Shown piece after piece: positions 43,848 through 47,612 of a stretch of 64,000 nucleotides of DNA; the stretch's first letter is position 1; every line of letters begins with the position of its first letter. A program made the position numbers and the translations under genes. The notes under the pieces were generated by a model. The model saw nothing but the letters and a program-made list of their open reading frames with translations. It searched no databases and was not told the DNA's origin. Source of the DNA: Luteimonas sp. FCS-9 (GTDB lineage Bacteria > Pseudomonadota > Gammaproteobacteria > Xanthomonadales > Xanthomonadaceae). The DNA is taken from contig NZ_LASZ01000001.1 in NCBI RefSeq assembly GCF_001014645.1, forward strand, positions 186,001 through 250,000, written 5' to 3'.

Positions 43848-45563
43848 ATGACCACCCGCACGCACGCCCCCGCCCTGCTCGACCGACTGCGTGGCATCGT
43901 CGGCCGCAGCCACGTGCTCAGCGGCGAGCGCGCGACGCGCCGCTACCGCAAGGGCTACCGGTTCGGCGACGGCCCGGTGCTCGCGGTCGCCCGCCCCGGC
44001 AGCCTGGTCGAGCTGTGGCGCGTGCTGCAGGCCGTCGTCGACGCCGGAGCGATCGTGATCATGCAGGCCGCCAACACCGGCCTGACCGGCGGCTCGACGC
44101 CCGACGGCGACGGCTACGACCGCGGCATCGTGCTGGTCAGCACCCGGCGGCTCGCGGGCATCCAGCTGCTGGACGGCGGCCGCCAGGTGGTCTGCCTGCC
44201 CGGCGCGACGCTCGACCGGCTGGAGAAGGCGCTCGCGCCGCTCGACCGCGAGCCGCATTCGGTGATCGGCTCGTCGTGCATCGGCGCCTCGGTGCTCGGC
44301 GGCGTGTGCAACAACTCCGGCGGCGCACTGGTGCGCCGCGGGCCGGCCTACACCGAGCTGGCGCTGTACGCGCAGCGCGGCGCCGACGGCGCGCTGCGGC
44401 TGGTGAACCACCTGGGCATCGACCTGGGCGAGGATCCCGAGACGGTGCTCGCGCGGCTGGAGGCCGGCGACTACGGCCCCGCGGACGTCGACCCCGCGCC
44501 CGACCGCGCGGCCTCGGACCGGCGCTACGCGCAGGACGTGCGCGACGTCGACGCGCCGACGCCGGCGCGCTACAACGCAGATCCCTCGCGACTGCACGAG
44601 GCCTCCGGGTCCGCGGGCCGGCTGGCGGTGTTCGCGGTGCGGCTCGACACCTTCCCGCGCGAGCCGGCAACGGTGCTCTATGTCGGCAGCAACGATCCCG
44701 ACGATCTCACCGCGATCCGCCGCTATCTGCTGACCGGCCTGGACGAATTGCCGATCGCCGGCGAGTACGTCCACCGCGACGCGTTCGACATCGGCGCGCG
44801 GTACGGCAAGGACGTGTTCCTGCTGATCGACCGCTTCGGCACCGACAAGGTCCCGGCGGCGTTCGCGTGCAAGAGCCGGGTCGACGGCCTGCTCGAGCGC
44901 GTCGGCCTGCGCGGCGCCAGCGACCGGGCGCTGCAGGCGCTGGTGTCGCTGCTGCCCGATCACCTGCCGCGCCGGCTGCGCGACTTCCGCGACCGCTACG
45001 CCCACCACCTGCTGCTCAAGGTCGGTACGGCGCAGGCCGCGGCGACCGAGGGGTTCCTGGACCGCCATTTCGCCCCACGCACGTCGGGCAGCTGGTTCCG
45101 CTGCACCGCCGACGAGGGCCGCAAGGCATTCCTGCATCGCTTCGCGATCGCCAGCGCGGCGGTCCGCTACCGCGAGGCGCACCGACGCGAGGTCGCCGAC
45201 ATCGTCGCGCTCGACATCGCGCTGCGCCGCGACGATCGCGACTGGGTCGAGACGCTGCCGCCGGACATCGACTCGGCACTCGCCGGCCGGCTGTACTACG
45301 GGCACTTCCTGTGCCACGTGTTCCACCAGGACTACATCGTCAAGGCCGGCCACGACCCACTGGCGATCGAGCATGCGATGTGGGCCCTGCTCGACGCGCG
45401 CGGCGCCGAATACCCGGCCGAGCACAACGTCGGCCACCTCTATCCCGCCAAGCCGACGCTCGCCGCGTTCTACCGCACGCTCGACCCGACCAACAGCTTC
45501 AACCCCGGCATCGGCCACACCCCCAAGGGCGCGCACTGGACCGACTGCGACTGCCCGCATTGA
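43848..45563 (+). CDS. dld: Quinone-dependent D-lactate dehydrogenase
   Basis: 571 residues, starting 10 bp after lldD. The FAD-binding PCMH-type domain includes PGSLVELWRVLQAVVDAGAIVIMQAANTGLTGGSTPDGDGYDRG. The C-terminal membrane-binding domain is of the Dld/E. coli type (HRDAFDIGARYGKDVFLLIDRFG; YPAEHNVGHLYPAK). The last residues DCDCPH are typical of the family. It oxidises D-lactate to pyruvate. The operon thus handles both lactate enantiomers with one permease. Confidence 0.94.
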   Translation: MTTRTHAPALLDRLRGIVGRSHVLSGERATRRYRKGYRFGDGPVLAVARPGSLVELWRVLQAVVDAGAIVIMQAANTGLTGGSTPDGDGYDRGIVLVSTRRLAGIQLLDGGRQVVCLPGATLDRLEKALAPLDREPHSVIGSSCIGASVLGGVCNNSGGALVRRGPAYTELALYAQRGADGALRLVNHLGIDLGEDPETVLARLEAGDYGPADVDPAPDRAASDRRYAQDVRDVDAPTPARYNADPSRLHEASGSAGRLAVFAVRLDTFPREPATVLYVGSNDPDDLTAIRRYLLTGLDELPIAGEYVHRDAFDIGARYGKDVFLLIDRFGTDKVPAAFACKSRVDGLLERVGLRGASDRALQALVSLLPDHLPRRLRDFRDRYAHHLLLKVGTAQAAATEGFLDRHFAPRTSGSWFRCTADEGRKAFLHRFAIASAAVRYREAHRREVADIVALDIALRRDDRDWVETLPPDIDSALAGRLYYGHFLCHVFHQDYIVKAGHDPLAIEHAMWALLDARGAEYPAEHNVGHLYPAKPTLAAFYRTLDPTNSFNPGIGHTPKGAHWTDCDCPH

Positions 45564-45680
45564 CCGCGCGTCGCACCCACACAGTGCACCCCGCTTGCCG
45601 GCCGGCCATCGCACCAAGTCCAGCGCCTGTCGACCGCAATCGAATATTCGCCTTCCGGTCCGCCATCGCATTCGTATCCA

Positions 45681-45749
45681 ACGCCTGTCGGGTGCCGTGA
45701 CCACCAAGCGGATATCGGGCCGCGACTGGGCGCGGTACCCGGCAGGCGC
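45681..45749. repeat. 69-bp inverted-repeat element, copy 1
   Basis: 5' arm ACGCCTGTCGGGT (two mismatches to the consensus) and 3' arm ACCCGGCAGGCGC bound a 43-bp core. The core contains GATATC and the small stem CCGCG/CGCGG. Confidence 0.85.
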
Positions 45750-45833
45750 CCACGATCGTCCCCCGGCCCCTGGGGCTGGTCAGCACAATCTGTGGGCACG
45801 CGCCCGCGCGCGACAGGTGTTCGAGCAATCGCC

Positions 45834-45855
45834 TCGCGCGCAAGCGCGCTCCTAC
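45834..45855 (-). repeat. GTAG-type REP element
   Basis: On the minus strand GTAGGAGCGCGCTTGCGCGC, then GA: a GTAG head and a GCGCGC-TT-GCGCGC stem. This is the palindromic REP form known from Stenotrophomonas and relatives. It lies inside the insert that lengthens the first repeat interval. Confidence 0.8.
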
Positions 45856-45951
45856 AGGCCATTGGCCTCGATCGCAGCATCCGATAACGAGATCGCGGCG
45901 CGTCAGCTTCTTCGTATCCCGCTTTCCGGCCCGTCATCGCACCCGCGTCCA

Positions 45952-46020
45952 GCGCCTGTCGAGTGCCGGGACCACCAAGCGGATATCGGGCCGCGACTGG
46001 GCGCGGTACCCGGCAGGCGC
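45952..46020. repeat. 69-bp inverted-repeat element, copy 2
   Basis: Arms GCGCCTGTCGAGT and ACCCGGCAGGCGC, with the same 43-bp core apart from a GTGA to GGGA change near its left end. Confidence 0.88.
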
Positions 46021-46130
46021 CCACGTCGCACCCTCAGCCTCGCTCGCGGCGCTCGACATCGAGACTGCGTCATCGCACCCAGCAGTGCCCTCGTATCCCG
46101 CTTTCCCGCCCGCCGTCGCAACCGTGTCCA

Positions 46131-46199
46131 GCGCCTGCCGGGTGCCGTGACCACCAAGCGGATATCGGGCCGCGACTGGGCGCGGTACCCGACAGGCGC
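46131..46199. repeat. 69-bp inverted-repeat element, copy 3
   Basis: Arms GCGCCTGCCGGGT and ACCCGACAGGCGC, with one mismatch in the right arm. The core is unchanged. Confidence 0.9.
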
Positions 46200-46308
46200 C
46201 ACGACGCACCATCAGCCTCGCTCGCGGCGCTCGACATCGAGACTGCGTCATCGCACCCAGCAGTGTCCTCGTACCCCGGTTTCCCGCCCGCCGTCGCAAC
46301 CGTGTCCA

Positions 46309-46377
46309 GCGCCTGCCGGGTGCCGTGACCACCAAGCGGATATCGGGCCGCGACTGGGCGCGGTACCCGGCAGGCGC
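46309..46377. repeat. 69-bp inverted-repeat element, copy 4
   Basis: Arms GCGCCTGCCGGGT and ACCCGGCAGGCGC are perfect 13-bp inverted repeats. This is the best copy and serves as the consensus. Confidence 0.92.
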
Positions 46378-46486
46378 CCACGATGCACCATCAGCCTCGC
46401 TCGCGGTGCTCGACATCGAGACTGCGTCATCGCACCCAGCAGTGTCCCCGTATCCCGCTTTCCGGCCCGCCATCGCACCACGTCCA

Positions 46487-46510
46487 GCGCCTGCCGAGTG
46501 CCGCGACCAC
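46487..46510. repeat. Truncated fifth copy of the 69-bp element
   Basis: The left arm GCGCCTGCCGAGT and ten bases of core are present, then the sequence changes into the cspA terminator. The right arm is missing. Confidence 0.8.
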
Positions 46511-46535
46511 AAAAAAGCCCCGCTTGCGCGGGGCT
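46511..46535 (-). terminator. Rho-independent terminator of cspA
   Basis: On the minus strand AGCCCCGC-GCAA-GCGGGGCT is followed by six T residues, 23 bp after the cspA stop. Confidence 0.95.
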
Positions 46536-46557
46536 TCGCGTTGCTGCGTGCGCGCGG

Positions 46558-46764
46558 TCAGGCGACCGGTGCGACGCCCGAGGCCTGCGCCCCCTTCGGT
46601 CCCTGCGTCACCTCGTAGCTCACGCGCTGCCCCTCCTGCAGCGACCGGAAGCCCGTCGAGTTGATCGCCGAGAAGTGCACGAACACATCCGCACTCCCGT
46701 CCTCGGGCGCAATGAACCCGAATCCCTTCGCATCGTTGAACCACTTCACTGTGCCGTATTGCAT
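46558..46764 (-). CDS. cspA: Cold-shock-domain protein
   Basis: 68 residues. The cold-shock fold is intact, with RNP1 KGFGFIAPE and RNP2 VFVHFSAI. It binds single-stranded nucleic acid and unwinds mRNA. It ends [16 protein letters not shown] as usual. Its own promoter lies just upstream and its terminator just downstream, so it is monocistronic. Bacteria carry several csp paralogues; which one this is cannot be decided here. Confidence 0.96.
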
Positions 46765-46826
46765 GAACGTCTGACCTCGTCTGGATACGTGATGCCGGCG
46801 GCCTGCAAGGGACGACCGACGGGCCG

Positions 46827-46856
46827 AGTATGCAAAGCATTCAGCCCGCGTTGCAA
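46827..46856 (-). promoter_or_regulatory. Predicted cspA promoter
   Basis: On the minus strand TTGCAA (46856-46851) and CATACT (46832-46827) are spaced by 18 bp. They predict a leader of about 57 nt before the ATG. The -35 abuts the stop of the upstream phosphorylase gene. Confidence 0.6.
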
Positions 46857-47612
46857 TCACTCCGCGAGCAGCGCGCGCACCAGTTGGGGAATGCCGGCCG
46901 ATGCCGCGGCCACGTTGGCCAGCACGTCCTCGAACGTGATGACCTCGTCGACCTGCGGGCCGGCACCGGCCGCCCAGTTCGCGACGATCGCCAGGCACGC
47001 GTAGTCGAGACCGAGTTCGCGCGCCAGTCCCGCCTCGGGCATGCCGGTCATGCCGACCAGGTCGCAGCCGTCGCGGCGCATGCGCGCGATCTCGGCCCGG
47101 GTCTCCAGCCGCGGCCCCTGCGTGGCGCCGTAGCAGCCGCCATCGACCAGCGCCACGCCCGCGCGCCCGGCCGCCGCGACGATCGCCCGCCGCAGCGAAG
47201 GCGTGTACGGGTTGCCGAAATCGACGTGCAGCACCTCGCTGCCCTCCTCCTCGCAGTACGTCGACACCCGGCCCCAGGTGTAGTCGATCAGCTGGTCCGG
47301 GCATGCGAGCACGCGCGGGCCGAAATGCTCGGTGATGCCGCCGACGGTGTTGAGCGCGAGCACGCGCGCGGCGCCGAGCGCCTGCAGCGCCGCGAGGTTG
47401 GCGCGGTAGTTGACCCGGTGCGGCGGCACCGAGTGGCCCTCGCCGTGGCGCGCGAGGAACGCCACGCGGCGACCGTCCAGCGTGCCGACCCGCACCGGCC
47501 CGGACAGCCCGCCGTAGCGCGTCACCGGCTGGTGCGTCTCGACATCCTGCAGCTCGGCCAGCGCGTACAGCCCGGTACCGCCGATCACGGCCAGGTCGAT
47601 GGATGCGGTCAT
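46857..47612 (-). CDS. S-methyl-5'-thioinosine/thioadenosine phosphorylase
   Basis: 251 residues of the PNP/MTAP family: [47 protein letters not shown], and [39 protein letters not shown]. In Pseudomonas the orthologue cleaves methylthioinosine to hypoxanthine and methylthioribose-1-phosphate. The neighbouring hpt, which consumes hypoxanthine, favours that specificity over plain MTA phosphorylase. Sequence alone does not settle it. Confidence 0.9.

Follow-up and report, generated by a model that had tools for sequence, protein, structure and literature searches.

Short hairpin repeats are common in bacterial genomes, and to our knowledge REPs are the kind among them that has a known partner enzyme. 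Some REPs have been reported to be bound by nucleoid or topoisomerase-type proteins, and GGAG is a tag of REP type. Other hairpins of relevance are the Rickettsia palindromic elements (RPE), palindromic repeats able to sit in frame in protein genes, and the attC sites of integrons, imperfect hairpins that are used as single-stranded DNA, occur in arrays and carry GTT...AAC type boxes.

According to excerpts of two papers, REP, BIME and REPIN sequences, together with the REP-associated tyrosine transposase (RAYT), and among them the group 2 REPs of E. coli, are dispersed hairpins with mismatched stem bases and, in REPs, strand-specific recognition; they form dimers in head-to-head arrangement whose two units are often different, and lie beyond gene ends and between convergent or unidirectional genes (PMC3733652, PMC8266576). 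The excerpted text also reports that E. coli TnpA-REP needs GTAG and an AA/GC bulge (PMC8266576). The CGTC-tagged REPs (Di Nocera et al. 2013) have, as excerpted, stems of 8-9 bp, loops of 4-5 nt and a CGTC tag, which is often TGTC, and they form head-to-head dimers without a linked transposase gene (PMC3733652). The BRE of Bordetella and other bacteria are described, in the excerpt of the paper on them, as GC-rich elements of 75-91 bp that are mostly intergenic, with some in genes and in an sRNA region, and that form variable-number tandem copies with few or no bases between them (PMC3110155).

The locus described here is an array of hairpins at 45590-46510 of a 64,000-nucleotide stretch of the Luteimonas sp. 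FCS-9 genome, hereafter called the window. It is flanked by a plus-strand gene at 43848-45563, which we take from its reading to encode a DLD-like FAD oxidase, and by a minus-strand gene ending at 46558, presumably cold-shock-protein-like. The initial annotation had reported a 178-179-bp array with four full copies and one truncated copy, conserved spacers and one interval enlarged by a REP insert, and all of this proved real. The same starts and spacing were recovered: four full repeat copies begin at 45678, 45949, 46128 and 46306 (spacing 271, 179 and 178 bp), and TRF run on the window placed a period of 178 with 3.4 copies and a score of 1023 at the top of its 24 rows. All hairpins lie on the plus strand, at 45681-45749 (copy 1, with 22-bp arms at 45681-45702 and 45728-45749 and the core at 45703-45727), 45952-46020 (copy 2, core 45974-45998), 46131-46199 (copy 3, core 46153-46177) and 46309-46377 (copy 4, core 46331-46355), the last having the lowest folding energy of the four. 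The truncated fifth copy (46484-46510, plus strand) begins 178 bp after copy 4, holds the 5' arm only and runs into a terminator-like hairpin beyond the csp-like gene. The 104-nt spacer between copies 2 and 3 (46024-46127) is 94% identical to that between copies 3 and 4 (46203-46305). The enlarged first interval (196 nt, 45753-45948, giving the 271-bp period) contains an ordinary GTAG-type REP of the GTAGGAGCGCGC family on the minus strand at 45832-45858, as read from the sequence; REPs of this kind also lie around the one Y1_Tnp match that the genome yielded (L095). A leader with a CGCTTTCCG box precedes the foot, for example at 45920-45948 before copy 2, and a further remnant, absent from the initial annotation and recognised from repeat family D4 and by reading the sequence, holds this leader and the first bases of the hairpin foot at 45590-45633 on the plus strand.

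The window hairpin consists of 22-bp arms, an internal loop ACCAA/GACT, an inner stem GCGG/CCGC and the loop ATATCGGG. It had initially been described as a 69-bp element with 13-bp terminal inverted repeats; the hairpin element stands, and the 13 bp are only the outer part of the arms, since that reading stops before G·T wobbles and an A·G mismatch. Across the family the stem length has its mode at 22 bp (71 of 143 distinct hairpins) and the apex is near-constant, with the ACCAA/GACT internal loop, a 4-bp inner stem and an 8-nt loop near RTNNCGNG. Besides that of the window, loops such as GTATCGGG, ATATCGTG, GTAACGTG, ATAACGGG, ATAACGAG, GTCACGTG and GTAACGAG are close to this consensus, and a few depart from it, e.g. 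TTATCGAG. In many genera the inner stem pairs badly (61.3% of cells in 31 hairpins): in most of these hairpins two of its four pairs do not count as paired under the standard rule, the stem reading GCGA...GAGC with possible G·A pairs.

The REP, BIME and REPIN properties listed above recur in this family, strand-specific recognition presumably among them, as does the presence of many extragenic copies in one genome (53 in Luteimonas sp. FCS-9), with copies in uvrA as an exception; inverted units at short distance, as in BIMEs and REPINs, are found in other genomes, whereas the arrays of Luteimonas sp. FCS-9 are direct. Unlike REPs, which measure 20-40 bp in all in the excerpts at hand, the hairpin has arms of about 22 bp and lacks a conserved GTAG tag; its 8-nt loop and internal loop are common to distant proteobacteria on a stem that is free but covarying, it has no linked RAYT, and it can lie in frame in a gene. 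The CGTC-tagged REPs resemble it in the dimers and the missing transposase gene and differ in stem and loop, given the mode of 22 bp and the 8 nt here, although TGTC does stand at many Luteimonas feet. With BRE, as excerpted, the hairpin shares size, GC-richness, mostly intergenic position with some copies in genes, and tandem copies in variable number; a difference is the near absence of bases between tandem BREs. It resembles RPE in being a palindromic repeat that can lie in frame, and its in-frame copies were seen only in uvrA. With attC it has imperfect hairpins and arrays in common; no GTT...AAC type boxes were seen by eye at the hairpin foot and no gene cassettes lie between the copies.

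The array is one of several in its genome. A blastn search of Luteimonas sp. FCS-9 hit dozens of further places, and a profile run over the fetched stretches gave 53 full copies, a number that exceeds chance, in 12 arrays of two to four copies and as 20 singles. These copies are mostly intergenic by a home-made gene caller, and mixed orientation is absent from all 12 arrays. Their periods are 116, 147, 162-171, 178-179, 187, 190-209 and 435 bp, so that, the 271-bp interval of the window apart, 11 arrays fall within 116-209 bp and the twelfth has 435. Spacers are 41-134 nt long, except for two of 196 and 360 nt. Within the six arrays that have more than one spacer, the spacers are 70-98% alike, the exception being the REP-bearing interval of the window (45-47%), and between arrays they are mostly unlike; one spacer is shared by the window and a second locus (L071), at 73-77% against 62-69% for the best of 20 shuffles. 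By eye, most copies, singles included, are preceded by a roughly 30-nt leader carrying a CGCTTTCCG-like box right before the foot, which is missing in a few (e.g. L057 and L065). The stable unit is the hairpin with its apical module, mostly together with the leader of about 30 nt. The proposals first made for the locus (a MITE-like element, a binding-site array or a structured RNA array) hold in that it is a dispersed, structure-conserved, non-coding element; the 178-bp array itself is one of 12 local arrays of differing period. Leader plus hairpin would be what was dispersed, and the arrays probably grew by unequal exchange between neighbouring copies.

Outside this genome, blastn found the element in 9 of 61 genomes (its own included), all of one genus. 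A degenerate-core scan of genome contigs returned 36 stretches, many of them from Luteimonas, with two other Lysobacteraceae records and single records elsewhere. Different yet paired stems (15-20 of 20 positions) occur in a Halieaceae MAG, Zeimonas arvi, two Burkholderiaceae MAGs and a proteobacterial MAG; core matches in Seonamhaeicola and Pleomorphomonas were rejected as lacking a stem (6/20 and 8/20 paired). With the covariance model R1, all of whose tallies are lower bounds, matches were obtained in 21 of 198 genomes of the own family (9 of 54 genera, own included; 29 candidates scored per genome) and in 12 of 74 genomes of the Zeimonas family, which also holds one Burkholderiaceae MAG (78 candidates scored per genome). 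Wider samples, searched at reduced sensitivity with 18, 19 and 14 candidates scored per genome, gave matches in at least 1 of 321 genomes (the own genome only), at least 7 of 299 and at least 2 of 399; the last sample is the order of Zeimonas, and this low count, obtained at that reduced sensitivity, speaks against identity with BRE. Many of these other genomes carry only one to a few copies each. Among viral contigs, 12 stretches had the degenerate core and none a paired stem, and blastn of plasmids and phages with one copy as query gave no match. Literature searches in openly licensed PMC papers returned none that was recognised as being on this hairpin repeat.

The organisation of the hairpins elsewhere differs from that of the direct arrays. 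Groups in other genomes comprise 37 '- +' pairs, one '+ -' pair, one '++' pair, 54 singles, some of which may have a partner beyond the fetched stretch or below the filter, and three groups of three or four hairpins; where two hairpins adjoin in these genomes, the arrangement is, as judged from sequence, head-to-head. The sole '+ -' pair belongs to the Halieaceae MAG (L115, about 230-500), whose hairpin lies inside a longer inverted repeat, GGTTCTTCGCACAAT... In Luteimonas aestuarii, BLCC-B24 and L. suaedae the pairs have members of two stem types. One genome (G786), which has 27 hairpin matches, contains a larger element with outer hairpins 466-472 bp apart in 7 deduplicated pairs (about 490 bp from start to start) and two inner hairpins without the ACCAA/GACT loop, yet with RTNNCGNG loops. 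Both inner hairpins are present at 9 of its 10 fetched loci and one at the tenth, and both outer hairpins at 8 of the 10. Inner-type hairpins number 21 in 34.6 kb of this genome, a count that takes in one chance-like match and a portion of another element; 20 local shuffles gave 0.55 on average, and the loci of Luteimonas sp. FCS-9 hold 4 in 136.7 kb. Among the scorable pairs, 16 lie between convergent genes, 12 between tandem genes and 2 between divergent genes, after 18 groups were dropped for a missing or overlapping gene and with genes called by a home-made program that uses codon-position G+C. Pairs are placed mostly beyond the 3' ends of the predicted genes.

Compensatory changes in the arms, proposed as a check in the initial annotation, are strongly evident. 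In 31 distinct hairpins (26 loci of other genomes; set A2, fitted to the model and so leaning toward structure), all 14 pairs of the outer stem have two-sided changes and 99.1% of cells are paired. Covariation over the whole structure is 0.820 against 0.178 in shuffled alignments, with none of 500 shuffles reaching 0.820, and at most 0.106 when slid. A hand-picked set (A1; 22 of 44 diverse hairpins, chosen after filtering for 10 or more paired positions out of 14) gave two-sided changes at 16 of 18 pairs and a covariation of 0.805 against 0.208. Paired stems could also be kept without selection, for template switching at quasi-palindromes, a known mutation process, would copy changes from arm to arm and keep the stems of inert repeats perfect. 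The same process should also erase the ACCAA/GACT internal loop and the apical loop, which are the most conserved parts, and it leaves unexplained the head-to-head geometry and the one-strand G·T excess described below, which makes it a highly improbable account.

This excess concerns the strand that folds. On folding as RNA, also suggested at the outset for both strands, both of them fold and the plus strand does so better: four plus-strand copies have energies of -44.8 to -56.1 kcal/mol (z -3.5 to -6.3) and three minus-strand copies -38.9 to -48.6 kcal/mol (z -1.6 to -3.8), with -56.1 vs -48.6 kcal/mol for the two strands of copy 4. Cells with G·T exceed those with A·C by 46 to 6 in 52 stem clusters, which include related Luteimonas stems and are not fully independent, and by 162 to 19 in 143 distinct hairpins; the filter counts Watson-Crick pairs only and so treats both kinds alike. 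Since a G·T cell becomes A·C when read from the opposite strand, the ACCAA...GACT strand is the one kept able to fold. The counts point to one defined folding strand, which fits RNA as well as single-stranded DNA and does not fit a symmetric duplex site.

Were a nucleoid or topoisomerase-type protein to bind the element as double-stranded DNA or as a cruciform, the long stems and the preference for convergent gaps would fit, but this reading is improbable: with both strands present, G·T should equal A·C, and the apex is kept as a loop and not as a duplex palindrome. The main rival is a structured RNA family, in which the ACCAA...GACT strand would be transcribed, as a small RNA or an mRNA 3' end, the apex would bind a protein or RNA, and a head-to-head pair would be two RNAs fired outward from a shared middle. 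The G·T excess, the strand energies of copy 4, an apex that resembles a binding site, the position of most scored pairs beyond gene ends and, by eye among the matches listed, a GCTTTTC/GCTTTCC box upstream of the foot in several genera all speak for it. That box is, by eye, unlike a sigma-70 promoter. Rfam 15 yielded three sub-threshold rows at E<=1 for window positions 45000-47400, none on a full copy, and no gathering-score family on the hairpins of 8 other loci, the only family there being a cobalamin riboswitch beside one pair. A first impression of sense-strand bias came from convergent gaps, where either orientation counts as sense, and was dropped; in tandem gaps sense and antisense hairpins number 9 and 4 in Luteimonas sp. 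FCS-9 (by eye) and 11 and 8, counted on singles, in other genomes, so that a preference is unclear, and one of three hairpins in a Zeimonas uvrA gene is antisense to it. Taken with these points, an RNA family is unlikely, though the most serious competitor. Orientation relative to replication, a bias in which could have favoured a route through single-stranded DNA, stands at 16 vs 8 and is not significant (p = 0.15).

A more direct relation to REPs would be that the hairpins are the REPs of a RAYT, with an unusual foot. Their head-to-head dimers, extragenic position and one-strand hairpin with mismatches below a short top stem are those of E. coli REPs, as excerpted (PMC8266576). Of 73 cluster representatives, 19 have GGAG in the 12-nt stretch about the foot as against 4 in an upstream control stretch, and this enrichment, a partial likeness to REP tags, slightly strengthens the RAYT explanation. 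On the other hand, GTAG was found in that 12-nt stretch in none of the 73 (control 1), and 54 of the 73 have neither tag, GTAG at the foot being seen in one copy of G786 (L327). The tetranucleotide in front of the 22-bp stem is variable, and its most frequent form, TCCA (44 of 178 distinct hairpins), is that of the own copies. In none of 23 Y1_Tnp loci does the hairpin lie in the flanks, viewed over about 1.5 kb to either side: one is from the own genome, whose RAYT-type gene is flanked by ordinary REPs, 19 are from 17 genomes, and three are from 14 genomes, these last showing two loose core matches with only 8/16 and 3/16 stem pairs. A Y1_Tnp match is also absent from 18 of 31 further genomes with the hairpin, among them G786. 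This makes the RAYT explanation the least probable of those weighed here. Nor was any clear recurrent neighbour gene seen in the 25 largest groups of alike open frames; these groups consist of orthologous loci, of four loci from the single genome G032 and of one edge frame shared by L230, L233 and L239. By its sequence, the hairpin would not be classed as a REP with respect to conserved tag and linked enzyme.

The reading preferred here, to which a probability of about one half is given, is that the array arose when one member of a dispersed hairpin family was amplified locally in tandem, the family being REP/BIME-like, probably mobile, and read on one strand by a putative strand-specific factor. 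It is called REP/BIME-like because its hairpin is strand-specific and carries irregular bases beneath a short top stem, and because its pairs are head-to-head and mostly beyond gene ends; the mobility, the reading factor and the choice of DNA over RNA are presumed. Under this scheme the ACCAA...GACT strand would fold while single-stranded, during replication or repair or in a mobile intermediate, and a putative strand-specific protein would read the apical module and use the paired stem as a handle. Such reading may let the element be copied and keep its fold from decaying. A one-hairpin derivative, made of the leader of about 30 nt and the hairpin, would have spread in this Luteimonas lineage, and close copies would then have given rise, by unequal exchange, to direct arrays, each with its own period.

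A broader and more tentative version, held at less than even odds, proposes that a protein unrelated to RAYT reads the apical module (the RTNNCGNG octaloop and the ACCAA/GACT internal loop) on one strand in single-stranded form and requires a stem that is paired but otherwise free, and that this shaped the intergenic pairs, the four-hairpin elements and the in-frame uvrA copies of distant proteobacteria. With its sharply delimited candidate module for recognition, a strand that can be measured, the constant geometry of its pairs and its occurrence in genomes in which no REP enzyme was found, the family opens to experiment the old question of how such hairpins are copied and guarded without a RAYT. 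Should a partner protein turn up, it might represent a novel type of reader of single-stranded hairpins.

Comparison of orthologous places bears on the mobility of the hairpin and on its maintenance. Among orthologous gaps for which the two flanks aligned, 1 of 14 in Luteimonas RC10 and 0 of 13 in BLCC-B24 hold the hairpin, and since its presence differs between close relatives, gains or losses are recent. Insertion boundaries and target duplications were unreadable in the aligned gaps viewed (13 and that of the window), which are too diverged, and because most of the compared gaps differ throughout, loss is as possible as insertion. Luteimonas RC10 has, in three gaps (L242, L258 and L271), another palindrome, CCGGGGTCAGAGTGCAATT...AATTGCACTCTGACCCCGG, where Luteimonas sp. 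FCS-9 has the hairpin.

The initial annotation had taken occurrence of the unit inside a conserved annotated protein gene elsewhere as speaking against its reading, and such occurrence was found in part. In Zeimonas (G062; L331, 640-6999) three hairpins lie in frame within one open frame of at least 2,120 codons, the first part of which has UvrA domains by Pfam and which is read as a double UvrA, with two UvrA proteins joined in a single chain. Across one hairpin the protein sequence is RFESLPDTRLVE, and across the other two it is QASIGERL. In a relative (G851; L320, minus strand) two hairpins occupy corresponding positions, and a UvrA-like segment runs through each of them, the uvrA-like gene being spread over three frames. 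Between the two genomes the stems of these shared sites differ at 6 of 20 and 2 of 20 pairs and every change is compensated (6/6 and 2/2), so that the uvrA copies are no argument against a structured element. Compensation of the stem at individual orthologous sites is not what inert mobile repeats usually show, and it speaks against the mobile-repeat reading in that each copy could have a host function. Seven other orthologous comparisons gave 0-2 two-sided changes and up to 3 one-sided changes, with 1 and 2 broken pairs in two of them and 4 in the comparison at a guaC gap, which joins non-matching members.

The guaC gap lies between guaC-like and carboxymuconolactone decarboxylase-like genes in two Burkholderiaceae MAGs (L134 and L135). 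What had been taken there for a flip of the hairpin is really a pair in one MAG and a single hairpin in the other; the pair has two different cores, and the two flanks of the single hairpin match different members of the pair. The cobalamin riboswitch mentioned above adjoins a head-to-head hairpin pair in G149 (L230, 1746-1960, minus strand). Additionally, hairpins lie in the xerC-hslV or hslV-hslU gap in two genera, with the genes named by eye, and in the dnaK-dnaJ gap in Zeimonas (L188, L191, L224, L225, L236, L117).
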